Below, piece after piece: positions 14,895 to 22,844 of a stretch of 64,000 bases of DNA. Each line of letters opens with the position of its first letter. Within the stretch, counting starts at the first letter, position 1. Both the position numbers and the translations under genes were made by a program. Under the pieces are notes generated by a model that saw only the letters and a program-made list of their open reading frames with translations, was not told the origin of the DNA and made no database searches. The stretch is taken from positions 754,501-818,500 of the forward strand of contig NZ_CP042466.1 of assembly GCF_008330225.1 (NCBI RefSeq), read 5' to 3'. The stretch is from Geobacter sp. FeAm09 (GTDB lineage: Bacteria > Desulfobacterota > Desulfuromonadia > Geobacterales > Pseudopelobacteraceae).

Positions 14895-15515
14895 TTACGG
14901 GGCGTGACCCCTCAGGAGTCCGTCTATCAGGGTCTCGGCCATGAGCGCGGTATCGGGCATGGGGAAGTCCCTGGTGAAGATGATGCTGGCCACCAGGCCG
15001 TGCATGGCGCTCCAGAACACCATTGCGAGCATGGCGTCGTCGCATTTTTTCAGAACGCCGCACCGCATGCAGTCGTTGATGAGCTCAAGGATGGCCCGGT
15101 ACGAGCGCAAGGCGACCGTATCCCGCGTCATAAAGCTGTCCGGCGAGCCGTAGACCACTGGGCTGGTGAAAAACACCGTCTTGTAGTGCTCGGGATGGGA
15201 GACGCCGAACAGGATGTACTGGTGGAGGACGAGGCGGAGCGCCTTGCCCGGGTCGGGCTCGGCCTGCCTGATCTCCACGATGGCCTTGAGAAAGGACGCA
15301 TAGAGATCTTCGCAGATGTAAAAGAGCAGGTCGTCCTTGTCGCGGAAATAGAGGTAGATCGTGGTCGGGGAATGCTCGATCCGGGCGGCCAACTTGCGCA
15401 TGGAGAACTGGGAATACCCCTCCTGGGAAAAGAGTTCCCGCGCTGCGGCCAGGATCTCCGCGCGGAATTGTTCCTTGTGCTGTATGCGCCGTTCTTTCAA
15501 ACCCACTATTAACAC
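14895..15515 (-). CDS. TetR/AcrR-family transcriptional repressor
   Basis: A 206-residue regulator. The N-terminal helix-turn-helix reads FSMRKLAARIEHSPTTIYLYFRDKDDLLFYI, a textbook TetR DNA-binding domain. The C-terminal ligand domain (TVFFTSPVVYG, AMHGLVASIIFTRDFPM) resembles the TetR_C_33 type often linked to lipids. The start is uncertain: GTG at 15515 or 15506, both within or next to a 15-bp palindrome, and no good Shine-Dalgarno sequence is seen. It sits directly upstream of shc in the same direction with a second copy of the operator between them. Autoregulation and control of hopanoid synthesis are inferred; the ligand is unknown. Confidence 0.88.
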   Translation of the reverse strand: MLIVGLKERRIQHKEQFRAEILAAARELFSQEGYSQFSMRKLAARIEHSPTTIYLYFRDKDDLLFYICEDLYASFLKAIVEIRQAEPDPGKALRLVLHQYILFGVSHPEHYKTVFFTSPVVYGSPDSFMTRDTVALRSYRAILELINDCMRCGVLKKCDDAMLAMVFWSAMHGLVASIIFTRDFPMPDTALMAETLIDGLLRGHAP

Positions 15516-15742: not shown

Positions 15743-16183
15743 CTACCCCTTGGCGATCTTGTCGCTCAGGCCTTGATTTATCTGGTAGAGAATCTTTTTG
15801 AACACCTCGACCTCATCGTTCGTCAAAGAGGTCGTCAGTTCCACGAACAGTTGCTGGTCCAGCGGCTTGAGCTGGCGCGCCAGCTGGTCACCCAGTTCCG
15901 TGACCAGCAACACATAGGAACGGCGGTCCGTCGGGTGATCGGCCCGCTTCACCCACCCTTTTTTTTCCAACTGGTCCAGAAGTTTCGTAATATTATTGGG
16001 ATCTTTTTCCGTTATGGTGGACAGCTCGCGCTGCGATATCCCGTGGTAATCCACCAGCTTGCTCAGAATGGACCATTGCTCCGACGTGATGCCGTAAGCC
16101 TTGAACCGCATGTTGAACAACTGGCTGAACTTCCTCGCGACGGCGTTGATAACATAGCCCAGCGCATCATCAGCGTCTATCAT
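15743..16183 (-). CDS. MarR-family transcriptional regulator
   Basis: A 146-residue winged-helix regulator. The recognition region GISQRELSTITEKDPNNITK and the wing ending ADHPTDRRSYVL are characteristic of MarR, and the flanking helices form the dimer interface. It stands alone with a terminator downstream. The AT-rich 76-base region between its start and the next hairpin probably contains its promoter and possibly its own operator, but no clear palindrome was seen. Targets are not evident; the nearby tetrahaem/FAD-reductase operon and the tetR/shc unit are both candidates by position only. Confidence 0.9.
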   Translation of the reverse strand: MIDADDALGYVINAVARKFSQLFNMRFKAYGITSEQWSILSKLVDYHGISQRELSTITEKDPNNITKLLDQLEKKGWVKRADHPTDRRSYVLLVTELGDQLARQLKPLDQQLFVELTTSLTNDEVEVFKKILYQINQGLSDKIAKG

Positions 16184-16957: not shown

Positions 16958-17131
16958 CTAACTCTCCCCCTTGGGGGTAAGCTCGATCTGGTCCTTGCCG
17001 TCGGCGGCCTTCTTGAAATTGCTGATGGCCTTGCCGACCGAGCTGCCGATCTCCGGCAGTTTGCCCACGCCGAATATCAATATGACAATAGCCCCGACAA
17101 TGAGTAGTTCGGGAATGCCGAAACCGAACAT
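16958..17131 (-). CDS. tatA: TatA-type twin-arginine translocase subunit
   Basis: A 57-residue protein: N-terminal MFGFGIPELLIVGAIVILIF with the short membrane helix and hinge (GVGKLPEIG), then the amphipathic helix SSVGKAISNFKKA and a charged tail. This is the full TatA pattern. AGGAG is seven bases upstream of the ATG. It follows genes for a tetrahaem cytochrome and a flavoprotein with a twin-arginine signal, so this copy is probably dedicated to, or boosted with, export of that flavoprotein. TatB and TatC are not in the window. Confidence 0.92.
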   Translation of the reverse strand: MFGFGIPELLIVGAIVILIFGVGKLPEIGSSVGKAISNFKKAADGKDQIELTPKGES

Positions 17132-17187
17132 AATGCGCTCTCCTTTCCTTGTGTAGCCCCTGATGGGTTTCCCGGGTCGTGTACAAG

Positions 17188-17231
17188 CCGAACCGGACAT
17201 GTCGGCTGAAGGACGGCCGTGTCCGGTTCGG
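17188..17231 (-). promoter_or_regulatory. Strong hairpin between tetrahaem cytochrome and tatA
   Basis: A perfect 12-bp stem (CCGAACCGGACA / TGTCCGGTTCGG) with a 20-base loop lies 15 bases after the tetrahaem stop. There is no good T tract on the minus strand, so it is more likely a partial terminator or an mRNA-stabilising element that lowers tatA output than a full stop. Confidence 0.55.
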
Positions 17232-17246
17232 TTTCACGCCCGTGGT

Positions 17247-17636
17247 TTATGGAACAATGAAGTCGAATCGTTCATGGCAGGGGAGACAGAAATTCTCCGA
17301 CTTCTTGTGCTGGTGGTGGCACAGGTTGCAATCGCCTTCCGTACCGTAGTGGCGGTTCTCATGCGGGTTGCGCGGCTGGACGTTGGCCGTCTTCTGGGCC
17401 AGTTTTGCCGTCTCTCCGTGGCAGCTCACGCACGTTGCCATCGGCACCGCGCCGGGGGTCTTGGCTTTGCCGTGGCACTGGGCGCATTTGACGCCCTTTT
17501 GCGCATGCAGTTTGCCCAACTCGCCGTCTTTCGCCTTCGGCGCAGTCGCGGCAAAGGCCCCCGCCGTCAAAAGCCCCCCCAGAAGCACAACCAGTGAAAT
17601 GGCACACAAGAACGTTTGTATGGTTTTGTTCTTCAT
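17247..17636 (-). CDS. Small periplasmic tetrahaem cytochrome c
   Basis: A 129-residue protein with a signal peptide and four CxxCH haem sites (CAQCH 51, CVSCH 69, CNLCH 103, CLPCH 117), plus extra histidines for the second axial ligands. The spacing almost equals that of the cytochrome domain of the fused flavocytochrome in this window (48, 71, 103, 117). It is therefore probably the separate electron-donating subunit of the Tat-exported FAD reductase encoded upstream. The arrangement parallels the two-protein methacrylate and related periplasmic reductases of Geobacter and Shewanella relatives. Electrons would come from the quinone pool through an inner-membrane cytochrome not encoded here. 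Confidence 0.92.
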   Translation of the reverse strand: MKNKTIQTFLCAISLVVLLGGLLTAGAFAATAPKAKDGELGKLHAQKGVKCAQCHGKAKTPGAVPMATCVSCHGETAKLAQKTANVQPRNPHENRHYGTEGDCNLCHHQHKKSENFCLPCHERFDFIVP

Positions 17637-17718
17637 CTTTTCTCCTCTCGTAAATAGGTGACTTTAGTGGTGCCGGGAACGGCAGCAGCCGTTCCCGATC
17701 TTTCAGGATGCTTCCGGA

Positions 17719-19371
17719 CTACAGCTTCGCCACGTGCTTTCCGGTCAGGTAGCCGAAGGTGTAGCAACGCCCCAGGGAGAGCCCGAAGACGGTGAGCGGA
17801 TAGTCCACCCCGCCGTAGAAGCCGCCGCCCAGGTTGCCGATCACATACAGCCCCTTGATCGGCTTGCCGTCGGCATTGAGGGCCTGGTGGTCGTCGTTGA
17901 TCAGCATGCCGGAGCAGATCGTGGAGACGCGCACCCGGCGATGGATGCCGTAGAACGGGGCCTTCAGGACCGGGACCAGGCGGTCGGCGGGCTTGCCGAA
18001 ATCGCTGTCCTGGCCGGAGGCAACCACCTCGTTGTAGCGTTTGACCGTCGCAACGAACGTGGCCGGGTCGACTTCCAGCTTCTTGGCCAGCTCTTCCAGC
18101 GTGTCCGCCACGTGGGTGTTGATAAGCGACGGGAAGACCCCTTTCTTGGGGCCCGGAACGTCGGGCATGTAGTTCTTCAGCCCTTCGGGCGGAACCAGCT
18201 TGCCCGGCCAGGTCGCGGCCTGGGTCATGTAGTCCGAATCGAAGACCTGCGAGTAGTGGCCGGCGTTCTTTTCATCGCGCAGGTAGTTGTTGAGCAGCGA
18301 CATCTCCACGGTCTCGTTGACGAACCGTTTCCCCTGGCGGTCGACGGCCAGAAACGGCATGTCGCACATGGTGGCCGGACCGGCGTCGAAGTCGTGCAGC
18401 ATCTTGGTGTGGCCGATGGGCTCGATCACGCCGCCCGCCCAGTAGGCCATGGCAAAACCGTCGCCGGTGCGGTCCATCTGCTTGCGCCCGAAGTTCTTCA
18501 GGTCGGGGATGAAGTATTCGCACATGGCCTTGTTGTTCTGGTAGTCGCCGGTCGCCAGGATGACGCCCTTCTTGGCCAAAAACTTCGTGTATTTGCCGTC
18601 CCGCCCCTTGGCAATCACGCCGATCACTTCACCGGACTTGGTCTGGACCAACTGCACGGCCGGCATGTTGAAGAAAAACTTGACCCCGGCCTTCTCGGCG
18701 GTCTTGGCCAGGTGGCGCATGCCGTCGCCCGTGGTATAGGGCTTCGGACCGAAGAACGAGGTGACGTAATTCAGGGTGTAGCCGTTGACCTTGCGGATGG
18801 CAACCTGGGGGCCGCTTCCCTGGTCCACGACCGGCGAGCCGGCCTGTTTGGCGCGATCGATGACCCATTTGACCGCCTCCCCGGAGTTGTAGGCCCACTG
18901 CCTGATGAGCGACGGGCTGCAGCGGTGGGCGCTGTCGGCGATGAGCCGTGCCACCAGTGCCTCCACGCCGGCCTTGTCGCTCTTTGCCAGATCGATGCCG
19001 GAACCGGTATTGCCCTGGGAAATCGGCATGGGGTGCTTCTGGACCACCGCAACCTTCGCGCCGTTCTCGGCGGCGGAGAGCGCCGCCGGGACACCCGCGG
19101 CGCCCGCACCGACCACCACGACGTCGAACGTCACCGTATGCGCGATCTCCTTGTCCGTGATCGGCTTCGGCTTCGGCATGAAATTGAGCGTCGCGCCACC
19201 GTCCGAACTCTTGGCGAACTGCCCGCCTTTTTCCACCGCCGCCTCAGCATCCTTCGCGGCAAAACCGCCGAGACCCAGCAAGCCGGCGCCGGCGGCGCCC
19301 ATTGCCGTGCGGGACAGGAAGCTCCGCCGTGAGATGCCCTGTTCGAGCACATGCTTAGTGTACTGATCCAT
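17719..19371 (-). CDS. Tat-exported FAD-dependent reductase (flavocytochrome c flavin-subunit family)
   Basis: A 550-residue flavoprotein. The N-terminus has a twin-arginine signal (ISRRSFLSR, Arg15-Arg16, then a Gly/Ala/Leu-rich core). The FAD-binding motif VVVGAGAAGVPAALSA starts near residue 85, and the FAD_binding_2 fold ends with GNLGGGFYGGVDYPLTV. ATG start with GAGGAGA five bases upstream. In fumarate reductases the catalytic Arg lies in ELTTRDKAS; the equivalent stretch here is NETVEMSLLNNYLRD, and the substrate-binding NRLGGN is replaced. A different substrate is therefore expected: an unsaturated carboxylate such as an acrylate, methacrylate or cinnamate type is plausible but unproven. 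It is transcribed with a tetrahaem cytochrome and tatA from a consensus sigma-54 promoter. Confidence 0.88.
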   Translation of the reverse strand: MDQYTKHVLEQGISRRSFLSRTAMGAAGAGLLGLGGFAAKDAEAAVEKGGQFAKSSDGGATLNFMPKPKPITDKEIAHTVTFDVVVVGAGAAGVPAALSAAENGAKVAVVQKHPMPISQGNTGSGIDLAKSDKAGVEALVARLIADSAHRCSPSLIRQWAYNSGEAVKWVIDRAKQAGSPVVDQGSGPQVAIRKVNGYTLNYVTSFFGPKPYTTGDGMRHLAKTAEKAGVKFFFNMPAVQLVQTKSGEVIGVIAKGRDGKYTKFLAKKGVILATGDYQNNKAMCEYFIPDLKNFGRKQMDRTGDGFAMAYWAGGVIEPIGHTKMLHDFDAGPATMCDMPFLAVDRQGKRFVNETVEMSLLNNYLRDEKNAGHYSQVFDSDYMTQAATWPGKLVPPEGLKNYMPDVPGPKKGVFPSLINTHVADTLEELAKKLEVDPATFVATVKRYNEVVASGQDSDFGKPADRLVPVLKAPFYGIHRRVRVSTICSGMLINDDHQALNADGKPIKGLYVIGNLGGGFYGGVDYPLTVFGLSLGRCYTFGYLTGKHVAKL

Positions 19372-19525
19372 ACCACTCTCCTCGTTCGTTGTGTCGTGAG
19401 CCATTCCTCTTACCTCCTCTGAGTTGTCTTCAACCATCAAACTGCCCTCCTCACTCTGGTTATGCCGCTGCAAAACGGTAAACGGGCGCCCGCTTGTATT
19501 GCCGTAACGAGACAATTCCATGGTA

Positions 19526-19542
19526 GAGCAATGCGCGTGCCA
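19526..19542 (-). promoter_or_regulatory. Consensus sigma-54 promoter for the FAD-reductase operon
   Basis: On the minus strand the sequence is TGGCACGCGCATTGCTC. It matches TGGCACG-N4-TTGCW in every defined position, with exactly ten bases between the GG and GC. Transcription would start near 19515, giving a leader of about 145 bases before the flavoprotein ATG. Confidence 0.88.
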
Positions 19543-19614
19543 CTCGTAGTAACATGCTGATATTGATGGATTTGATAAAATTATTATTTTTTCATAAATA
19601 CTAAATAGATAATA

Positions 19615-19652
19615 TATTCCAAAAATGCTAATATATTAGCATTTTTGGAATA
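19615..19652. promoter_or_regulatory. 38-bp perfect palindrome, probable activator binding site
   Basis: Two 19-base arms (left arm TATTCCAAAAATGCTAATA) meet without a spacer. It is very AT-rich in a GC-rich region. It lies 73-110 bp upstream of the sigma-54 promoter, the usual distance for an enhancer-binding protein, and 58 bp before the divergent activator gene, so it could serve activation of the operon and autoregulation. Confidence 0.7.
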
Positions 19653-19709
19653 ATAAACGTGTAATGCACTGCAATGATTGAATTTAATAAAGCCAATGGG
19701 GTTGACAAA

Positions 19710-22700
19710 ATGTCACTGAACAAACTGTGGTTTGAGCTGGAGGAATGGGAGAAGGAAATCCTGCTGTACCTGGCCCAGGGCATTTCACCGGTCTCCATCG
19801 ACCTGCTCTGCATGTTGTCGGCGCGCTCCCCCGTGGAAATACTCACGGTGATGGACAAACTCAAAAAGAAAAAGGTCGTCTGCGAGAAAAAGGAATGTCC
19901 CAAGGGCACCTATTTCCTCTGTGAAAGCCAACTGGGGGAACAGATCCGGGAATACGTCCCGGAGGAGGCCATGCGGGAAGCCGTGTGCGCCATGATCAGG
20001 ACCTACCATCAATTTCTCGACGAGGGGCACGACAAGGACCTCGCCCTGGCGAAACTGTACCTGGAAAACGGCGAATGCCCACAAGGGCTGAGCTACGTAA
20101 GAAACGCCGCCGACTTCTTCCTCCAGACCGACCAGCCGGACAAGGCGCTGGCCTATTACGACTACCTGGTGCGCACCGTTGCCGCTGCCGGCCTGAACGC
20201 CGGCAATGCGGAGTTCTACCTGTCCGGCTTCATGGGGAAGATCGAAACCACGGGGCAATGGATCCCGGTGGACGAGATCGTCTCCCAGGTGTTCGAGGCC
20301 TGCGCGGTGGCCCGGCGTTACCGGCAGTGGCAGTTCCTGGCGCGGGCGCAGTTCGAGCTGATCTGGCGCCTGCTCCTGCAGGGCGACATCAAAAAGGCGG
20401 CCCACTATGTTTCCGCGACCATGAAGCTGGCCGAAAGATTGGCCGACAAGCGGATGGTCAAGATGGCGGCCATGTGGCAATGCGAGATCCACCGCTGGCG
20501 GGGCGAAGTGGCGGAGGGGGTCCGGCGCTACGAGGAGTCGGTGGAGAAGCTGGAGACCTTCGGGGACGACAAGCCGTCGCTGTGGGCCGGGGCGGCGCTG
20601 GGGCTGAGCTACGTCATCTCCGGGCGGGCGGCCCAGGGGTTGGGGATGATCGAGGCGGTGCGGCTCAAGACCAACCTGCTCAACATCATGTCCCGGCGGC
20701 TGGTGGTGTTCGTCGACCGGATGCTCATCGTATCGCTGCTCGAGATCCGCAGGCTCGACGAGGCGAAGGCCTACGTCGACGCCATGCTCACGCTGCCGGA
20801 CAGGCTGCTCGGCTTCTACATGCTGCGCGAACTCTGCCTCTACCGCGCCTACTTCCTGTGCGGCGAGGGCAAGTACCGGGAGGCGTTCGATTACCACGTA
20901 AAGGCCACGGAGTACATGCGCTACGGCGGCTTTGTCCAGCAGAAGTTCCCCTGGAGCTTCGAATACATGGACATTCTGGAAAAGCAGGGGTTCATCCATG
21001 GGGAGATGAATTACGACGGGGAGGTGGAGCGGGTCCTCAGGGGGCACGACATCTACATGAAGGGGGTCGGGCTGCGCTACCGGGCCCTGCGCAGCCTGGA
21101 GCGGCACGAGCCGTGTGAAAAGGTGTTGGCGGACCTGCACGGAAGCGAGAGCCTTCTGGAGCGGGCCGGCGCCGAGATCGAACTGGCCCGGACCCGGATC
21201 GCCCTGGGGCGCGCACACCTGAAAACGGGCGACGCCCAACACGCCCAGAGCTACCTGGAAAAGGCGTGGATGGTGTTCTCCAAGATCGACATAGAACTGT
21301 TCCCCAAGGAGTTGCTGGCGACCCTCCCCCTGGAGAAAAAAAATGAAATAGTGTTCAACAGGATCATCGCCATCAACAAGTCCCTGGGAAATATCAGGGA
21401 AAAGAGCACCTTCCTCAATCAGGTGATCAGTGCGGCGCTGGATTTCACCATGACCACCCGCGGGGCGCTTTTCAGCATAGGGAGGGACCGGGAACCGTGT
21501 GTCGTGGCCAGCAGAAATATGGATCCGCTGTTCTTCACGACAAGGCAATTCAAGCTTATCAAGAAAGTCGTGGCCCTGACCGCCCGGACGACAGCGGAGC
21601 GGATCGTGCCGGGGCCCGGCGCAACGGACGCCGTGGCAGAGGATGCCCTGGCGCAAAGCGGCACCACATCGTTCATCTGCATGCCGGCACGGCAGAACGA
21701 GGCCATGCAGGAATACCTGTACCTCGACAACAAATTCACCGAAGGTGCGTTCAGTACAAGCCAGCTTCTCTATCTGCGGCTTCTGTGCAGCCAGATGGCG
21801 GTGGGGCTGTCCAATATCGAGGCCTACGAGGCGATCCGGGAGACGAAAGACCGCTACCAGGACGAGGCGGTCTTCTACAAACGGGAGATGGGGATCGACA
21901 ACCCCATCGAGACCATCGTCGGCACCTCCACGGGGATCACCACGGTCAAGGAGGCGATCCGCCAAGCCGCACCCACGGATATCTCGGTGCTGGTCATGGG
22001 GGAAACCGGCGTGGGCAAGGAGTTGGTGGCCAAGGCCATCCACAACCTGAGCAACCGCAAGGACGGCCCCTTCATCCCGGTCAACCTGGCGGCCATCCCG
22101 TCCGAGCTCTTCGTCAGCGAGCTCTTCGGCCACGAGAAGGGGGCCTTCACCGGGGCCGGGGACCTGTACAAAGGGCGCTTCGAACTGGCCCACGGCGGGA
22201 CCATCTTCCTGGACGAGATCGGCGACCTGCCGCTGCACGTCCAGGTGAGGCTGCTGCGCGTCCTCCAGGAGGGGAGCTTCGAGCGGCTCGGGAGCTCGAA
22301 AGCGATCCGTTCCGACTTCCGGGTGGTGGCGGCCACCAACAAGGACCTGGCGCGGGAGGTGGAAAAGGGGACGTTCCGCCAGGACCTGTACTACCGGCTG
22401 AACGTCTTTCCGATCCAGGTGCCGCCGCTGCGCGAGAGGCTGGAGGACATCCGCCCCCTGGCCCAGCATTTCCTTGTGGTATCGAGCCAGAAGATGCGCA
22501 AGAAGCTGCAGCACATCCCCGCCGACGAGCTGCGCAAGCTGATGAATTACAACTGGCCGGGCAATGTTCGGGAGTTGAAGCACACGGTGGAGCGGGCGGT
22601 CGTCCAGTTTACCAGCGGCAGGATAAGCTTTACGGGGGTTGAGAATGCCCCGGCGGACGCCCTGCCGGAGGGGGGCTCCTTCTGGGCGCCCTTGGCCGAC

Positions 22701-22844
22701 ATGGAGCGGGAGTATATCGAAAAGGTGCTGAACGCCACGCGCTGGCGGGTCAACGGCCCCAAAGGCGCGGCGCTCATCCTCGGACTGAAGCCGGTGACGC
22801 TGTTTGCCCGCATGAAAAAGCTGGGGATCAGCCGGAATAAATAG
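19710..22844 (+). CDS. Large sigma-54 activator with TPR-like and GAF sensory regions
   Basis: A 1044-residue protein. About residues 1-560 form a helical, TPR-like region preceded by a winged-helix-like N-terminus (VSIDLLCMLSARSPVEILTV). A GAF-like domain follows (STFLNQVISAALDFT to near residue 720), then the AAA+ activator domain with GETGVGKE, GAFTGAG and GGTIFLDEIGDL, and a C-terminal Fis-type helix-turn-helix (GAALILGLKPVTLFARMKK). There is no receiver domain, so it probably senses a ligand directly. The start at 19710 has GGGG seven bases upstream; an ATG at 19674 is possible. It is divergent from the FAD-reductase operon with its sigma-54 promoter and is almost certainly that operon's activator. 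Confidence 0.93.
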   Translation: MSLNKLWFELEEWEKEILLYLAQGISPVSIDLLCMLSARSPVEILTVMDKLKKKKVVCEKKECPKGTYFLCESQLGEQIREYVPEEAMREAVCAMIRTYHQFLDEGHDKDLALAKLYLENGECPQGLSYVRNAADFFLQTDQPDKALAYYDYLVRTVAAAGLNAGNAEFYLSGFMGKIETTGQWIPVDEIVSQVFEACAVARRYRQWQFLARAQFELIWRLLLQGDIKKAAHYVSATMKLAERLADKRMVKMAAMWQCEIHRWRGEVAEGVRRYEESVEKLETFGDDKPSLWAGAALGLSYVISGRAAQGLGMIEAVRLKTNLLNIMSRRLVVFVDRMLIVSLLEIRRLDEAKAYVDAMLTLPDRLLGFYMLRELCLYRAYFLCGEGKYREAFDYHVKATEYMRYGGFVQQKFPWSFEYMDILEKQGFIHGEMNYDGEVERVLRGHDIYMKGVGLRYRALRSLERHEPCEKVLADLHGSESLLERAGAEIELARTRIALGRAHLKTGDAQHAQSYLEKAWMVFSKIDIELFPKELLATLPLEKKNEIVFNRIIAINKSLGNIREKSTFLNQVISAALDFTMTTRGALFSIGRDREPCVVASRNMDPLFFTTRQFKLIKKVVALTARTTAERIVPGPGATDAVAEDALAQSGTTSFICMPARQNEAMQEYLYLDNKFTEGAFSTSQLLYLRLLCSQMAVGLSNIEAYEAIRETKDRYQDEAVFYKREMGIDNPIETIVGTSTGITTVKEAIRQAAPTDISVLVMGETGVGKELVAKAIHNLSNRKDGPFIPVNLAAIPSELFVSELFGHEKGAFTGAGDLYKGRFELAHGGTIFLDEIGDLPLHVQVRLLRVLQEGSFERLGSSKAIRSDFRVVAATNKDLAREVEKGTFRQDLYYRLNVFPIQVPPLRERLEDIRPLAQHFLVVSSQKMRKKLQHIPADELRKLMNYNWPGNVRELKHTVERAVVQFTSGRISFTGVENAPADALPEGGSFWAPLADMEREYIEKVLNATRWRVNGPKGAALILGLKPVTLFARMKKLGISRNK

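Follow-up and report, generated by a model that had tools for sequence, protein, structure and literature searches.

The perfect 38-bp palindrome at positions 19615-19652 of the window (the whole 64,000-nucleotide stretch of DNA analysed here) is probably, with a likelihood that we put at about 0.77 from sequence comparisons, the promoter-distal member of a pair of upstream activator sites for a TPR-GAF sigma-54 activator that is encoded divergently. Dimers of this activator (or parts of one hexamer) would occupy two CAATATATTG-type dyads centred near -98 and -117 relative to the start predicted for the flavoprotein transcript; their spacing of 19 bp falls slightly short of two helical turns. 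With a ligand bound in the GAF/TPR part, the AAA+ ring would be free to act on sigma-54 polymerase at 19527-19542 and remodel it, and a reductase would be turned on together with its cytochrome. The perfect 38-bp symmetry would be an extension of the distal site, seen only here among the loci examined. We thus infer binding by the activator, activation of the neighbouring reductase and control by a ligand. The features concerned are these:

16958..17200, minus strand: TatA/B/E-like protein, next gene on the same strand as the reductase and cytochrome genes
17247..17636, minus strand: small c3-type (tetraheme-like) cytochrome, putative electron donor
17719..19404, minus strand: Tat-exported FAD reductase (flavoprotein), related to flavocytochrome c/fumarate reductase; open frame from 19521
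19527..19542, minus strand: sigma-54 promoter TGGCAC-GCGCA-TTGCT of the flavoprotein operon, -12/-24 spacing intact
19589..19618, plus strand: possible sigma-70-type promoter of the activator, TTTTCA-18-TATATT, from a consensus match alone (9/12); overlaps UAS1
19610..19619, no strand: UAS1, proximal candidate activator site TAATATATTC, 8/10 to CAATATATTG, centre 72.5 bp from the -24 T
19615..19652, no strand: the 38-bp palindrome; its arms past UAS2 are absent from all homologous loci examined
19629..19638, no strand: UAS2, distal candidate activator site TAATATATTA, 8/10, centre 91.5 bp from the -24 T
19710..22844, plus strand: activator gene, start by homology; open frame from 19674

On the plus strand the order is sigma-54 promoter, palindrome, activator gene. 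The first-pass annotation had described the promoter as consensus, and it does agree at all 11 of 11 defined positions (TGGCAC-N5-TTGCT); its minus-strand orientation assigns it to the flavoprotein operon and not to the activator gene. The flavoprotein probably starts at 19404, where GAGGAGG precedes the start (read by eye), rather than at 19521, as the latter lies at or before the expected start of the transcript. For the activator gene, homology makes 19710 the probable start, not 19674. Sites like its possible promoter, TTTTCA-18-TATATT, number three in the region against 1.1 expected by chance, and it is possible that the activator represses its own promoter.

The activator consists, in order, of an N-terminal winged-helix-like part, a TPR-like superhelix, a GAF-like region, a sigma-54 AAA+ domain (PF00158, 233.8 bits, with the GAFTGA loop present in the translation) and a Fis-type C-terminal HTH (PF02954, 28.5 bits against a cut-off of 22). 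With its AAA+ domain and GAFTGA loop, its Fis-type HTH and the adjacent -24/-12 promoter, it has the attributes of a sigma-54 enhancer-binding protein. Its earlier description as a receiver-less activator with TPR-like and GAF regions holds, on structural evidence more than on Pfam, which gave a sub-threshold TPR match and found no GAF domain. An AlphaFold2 model of residues 1-697 (built from 13 sequences; mean pLDDT 87.3) begins with a winged-helix-like part, followed by a superhelix of helical repeats and an alpha/beta domain near 584-696, and a Foldseek search with it returned TPR proteins among the first matches and the GAF domain 3ci6 further down (TMt 0.68). The best NCBIfam profile is that of FhlA (NF011958), although the score (349.7 bits) falls short of the cut-off of 830, and the best-matching stretch covers residues 664-1043 only. 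It is plausible that the activator and the promoter together constitute a putative ligand-responsive circuit.

The palindrome, TATTCCAAAAATGCTAATA|TATTAGCATTTTTGGAATA, comprises two arms of 19 bases with neither mismatch nor spacer, as had been claimed, and ranks best among the inverted repeats of the window. Its AT-richness is likewise real: 30 of its 38 bases are A or T, compared with 37% A/T in the window as a whole. Such a structure is well beyond chance, for in 5000 dinucleotide shuffles of 19543-19709 the longest spacerless arm was 12, reached in a single shuffle, and the next perfect palindromes in 253,042 scanned bases of the same genome have arms of 9. Across the 4.1-Mb genome the 30-base core has a single occurrence, even when up to three mismatches are allowed; the 32-base core had no exact match in viral contigs, and a search of plasmid sequences gave no match.

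The sensor part of the activator was matched in one of 76 genomes of its own family (at 1e-40), and that one was its own genome, which left no syntenic relatives inside the family for comparison. Elsewhere in the phylum, sensor-part homologues were found in 39 of 395 genomes of other classes at 1e-15, and in further genome sets in 4/5, 3/46 and 17/85; 20, 8 and 12 homologue regions were taken. The genes divergent from these homologues (in L054, L055, L057, L058, L060 and L062) determine a branched-chain amino-acid permease, an acyl-CoA ligase, a PPDK-like protein, an MFS transporter and an M23 peptidase. With neighbours as varied as these, the activator group has no fixed association with reductases.

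When all 1024 ten-base palindromes were scanned through the 250 bp upstream of 16 activators (the window's, those of two paralogous loci of the same genome, A and B, and 13 from other genomes), CAATATATTG ranked first, with 11 of the 16 regions having it at no more than one mismatch; in 200 shuffles the best palindrome of any reached seven regions. The window is not one of the 11, its cores TAATATATTC and TAATATATTA each having two mismatches. Counts made at one per genus omit G279, G256, G224 and G186 (genus already represented; the upstream of G186 is also too short), as well as homologues whose upstreams run into contig ends (e.g. G555 and G556) or that have a different HTH, and those of pairing and promoter distance used 14 regions instead of the 16 of the dyad scan.

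UAS2 is the exact centre of the palindrome and UAS1 straddles its left edge. A single 8/10 match is to be expected by chance in DNA as AT-rich as this (p=0.49), so the case for the window's sites rests on position and pairing. A second core lies 19 bp from the first in the window, in locus B and in G121, G322, G484a and G484b, and 20 bp away in G394. Among pair offsets of 10-60 bp, 19 bp came top in every subset, and with other genomes only it scored 160 against a null maximum of 145. Distances from core to -24 agree closely (72.5 and 91.5 bp in both the window and G484a, 72.5 in A, 73.5 and 92.5 in B, 70.5 and 89.5 in G121, 72.5 and 92.5 in G394, 91.5 in G215 and 74.5 in G484b). This geometry fits 8 of the 14 homologues, compared with a mean of 0.02 and at most one in 300 shuffle sets, for distance windows and a motif set after the data were seen; G322, G401, G196, G403, G547 and G544 fall outside. 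The window's pair at that place was reproduced in a fraction of 0.00015 of 20,000 shuffles. In the whole genome, AATATATT-N11-AATATATT (with up to two mismatches) is found at four places: the window, A, B and one coding-looking stretch. The own-genome hit at 1793743, which reads by eye as coding, was set aside.

Promoter-like elements of the form TGGYAY-N5-TTGAA stand at the conserved distance in L054, L055, L057 and L108 (G121, G394, G215 and G484a, respectively); in these, A replaces the C of the usually invariant -12 GC.

How far is the motif peculiar to this activator family? As a control we took 40 further sigma-54 activators of the same genome, with a motif threshold of at least 8/10. 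Among own-genome activators of the same HTH type, defined by the expression G..GAA..L (also set after the data were seen), 7 of 10 had the motif, as against 3 of 33 others (p=0.00035); leaving out the window, A and B, the figures are 4 of 7 and 3 of 33 (p=0.011). In an initial form of this control, on one strand, the motif was present at 9/10 or better in 2 of 7 usable regions. The comparison showed that the motif follows the HTH type and is not private to this activator family. In all sets taken together, serine at one position of the recognition helix goes instead with CGATATATCG (5 of 8, against 0 of 12 without serine; p=0.0036, a post hoc comparison in which sites of sufficient quality to be counted were present in 20 of 35 rows). 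A change of HTH type is thus accompanied by a change of DNA word, which is what one would expect if the site is read by the HTH of the activator itself. Own-genome activators of the same HTH type (L132-L138) have dyads that are CAATATGTTG or resemble CGATATATCG, with two copies at L135, for example.

The dyad's conservation, its pairing, its distance from the promoter and its link to HTH type therefore support the prediction of an activator site at enhancer distance from the sigma-54 promoter. The first-pass annotation had also suggested that two dimers may bind. This seems likely, but on two dyads of about 10 bp, 19 bp apart, and not on one long palindrome.

It is very improbable that the palindrome is an element of secondary structure, be it a hairpin in the leader of the activator mRNA, an intrinsic terminator or a cruciform. 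A stable RNA hairpin is indeed predicted (-19.6 kcal/mol, z -7.6) and there is a weak terminator-like pattern on the minus strand, but the plus strand has no U-tract and the minus strand no gene end nearby; nor is there any counterpart in 40 other homologue upstream regions (of at least 100 bp each), where the longest arm is 8. The conserved parts are, instead, short dyads at a fixed distance from a DNA promoter element. The leader hairpin or cruciform proposed earlier hence finds no support. An intrinsic terminator was rejected separately, as 4 of the 17 stem pairs are G-C and no match was found on the plus strand.

Genes for a TetR-like protein (14895-15515) and a MarR-like protein (15743-16183) lie in the window, and some TetR proteins use operators of more than 30 bp. 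That the 38-mer is the operator of another regulator, such as one of these, is nevertheless hardly credible: its dyad centre is common to homologues of the activator elsewhere, and the single genomic occurrence of the 30-base core means that neither gene has one upstream, as would be expected if the regulator controlled itself.

The two paralogous loci are controls supplied by the genome itself. The activator of locus A is 89% identical to that of the window, and the flavoprotein-cytochrome block (window 17244-19476; L034, own genome 413795-415564 plus flanks) is 99.91% identical over 2233 bp. This near-identity stops at window 19476, short of the sigma-54 promoter. In locus B, the activator is 76% identical and the flavoprotein is different: the B enzyme scores 453.5 with the flavocytochrome c profile TIGR01813, whose curated score of 285.45 is not reached by the window flavoprotein (154). 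Both loci have sigma-54 sites matching at 10 of 11 positions. The absence of the palindrome from loci that keep both genes had been named as evidence against its role; the 38-mer is indeed missing from A and B, but the dyad at its centre is present in each (ACAATATATTGT in A, CAATATATCG in B), so that the objection touches the long palindrome and not its core.

The activators of the window and locus A are mosaic, with 97-99% DNA identity over codons 51-350 and 73-85% over codons 501-700 (the GAF region and before). Taken with the identity of the reductase blocks, this suggests gene conversion with diverging sensors. The promoters of the window and locus A differ despite the 99.91% identity of the blocks that follow them. 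A near-identical porin-like protein of 398 amino acids is encoded in three copies next to the reductase loci (L034, 692-1888 and 11278-12474; L035, 2824-4020), and the L035 copy had no Pfam or NCBIfam match.

Conservation does not account for the arms of the palindrome. Around 18 sites of other activators, symmetry is pronounced out to ±5; from there to about ±9 the excess is slight (35 symmetrical cases at positions 6-9, with 21 expected), and further out the picture is mixed. Since it fades past about ±9 at these sites, the window's unbroken ±19 is exceptional. The palindrome moreover ends exactly on the axis of UAS1 (19614.5), and consequently its far arm repeats half of UAS1 in mirror image.

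The chances are not far short of even that the arms are a mutational scar, adding nothing to the function of the activator site. Such a scar could have arisen if a nascent strand switched template at an imperfect inverted repeat around UAS2, so that the left flank was copied rightward; the copy would include the right half of UAS1. Only the arms are at issue in this account, which can stand alongside the reading of the palindrome centre as an activator site. It would account for arms that are shared by no relative examined, and is favoured by the outlying position of ±19 among the 18 other sites, by arms of at most 8 in the upstreams of other homologues (40 regions, 250 bp) and by an A5 in the inter-site spacer of locus A like that in the left arm (read by eye). 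Template switching at imperfect inverted repeats makes them perfect, and this conversion of quasipalindromes is documented in Escherichia coli (excerpt of PMC7202029).

A tandem pair of CGATATATCG sites, 18 bp apart and accompanied by a sigma-54-like site (9/11), lies at L066:390-424, downstream of the gene of a distant homologue. Its promoter-distal member is at the centre of a 24-bp perfect palindrome (L066:401-424), as the distal member is in the window, and this weighs against a scar, hinting that extension may recur for a reason. The arms might be functional and compensate for weak cores, whether through additional contacts, through the shape of the DNA or through a third half-site in mirror image (GAATA at +19), selection having favoured tighter binding at a weak pair; we regard this proposal as possible but doubtful. 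The window's cores are both at 8/10, below those of A (10) and B (9), yet its symmetry is the longest, and extended symmetry is found also at G121b (arm 12), G215 and L135 (arm 8) and G403 (arm 7). The arms are not, however, shared by paralogues A (89%) and B (76%), in which the HTH is nearly the same. More speculatively, and improbably on present sequence evidence, the 38-mer may be a fresh super-site, in which a template switch at a degraded tandem enhancer carried one flank and half of UAS1 over the axis of UAS2, created three phased groups of half-sites (at -19, 0 and +19) and restored strong binding. If so, this copy of the operon would be wired differently from its 99.9%-identical twin.

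Whatever the origin of the arms, the paired dyads give a wide group of TPR-GAF sigma-54 activators a specific binding code that lends itself to testing (the motif, its tandem repetition at 19 bp, its distance from the promoter and, in the recognition helix, a candidate specificity residue), and the two near-identical reductase operons, under diverged sensors and enhancers, form a natural pair in which to study gain and loss of enhancer symmetry. Our literature searches found no description of this widespread group, and none of tandem NtrC sites; among the matches listed for CAATATATTG there was no title on a sigma-54 activator, and an FhlA site string did not occur in the papers listed for it.

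How does the locus compare with known systems? Two-component periplasmic flavin reductases such as the methacrylate redox system Mrd/Mcc (PMC4427408, in the part available) resemble it in combining a heme-free, Tat-exported flavoprotein with a separate multiheme cytochrome in one operon; the window flavoprotein differs in scoring 154 against the flavocytochrome c cut-off of 285. The word sigma does not occur in the main text of that paper. Sites of FhlA and NifA (TGT-N10-12-ACA; excerpt of PMC6615313) are, like those of the window, dyads for activators with Fis-type HTHs, but the window's cores are of the CAATATATTG type, without TGT/ACA ends. In Desulfovibrio vulgaris, according to an excerpt of PMC4641369, one-component activators are encoded beside their target operons, with a sigma-54 promoter and upstream dyads, and one AT-rich palindromic site is predicted, for the regulator DVU2275; the window appears to differ in its motif and in the 19-bp tandem arrangement. 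To the quasipalindromes made perfect by template switching (excerpt of PMC7202029), the likeness is that of a perfect inverted repeat derived from an imperfect one, which for the window would be a matter of deduction only. Overall, the locus appears to be a tandem enhancer of a familiar type that carries an unusual extension of its own.
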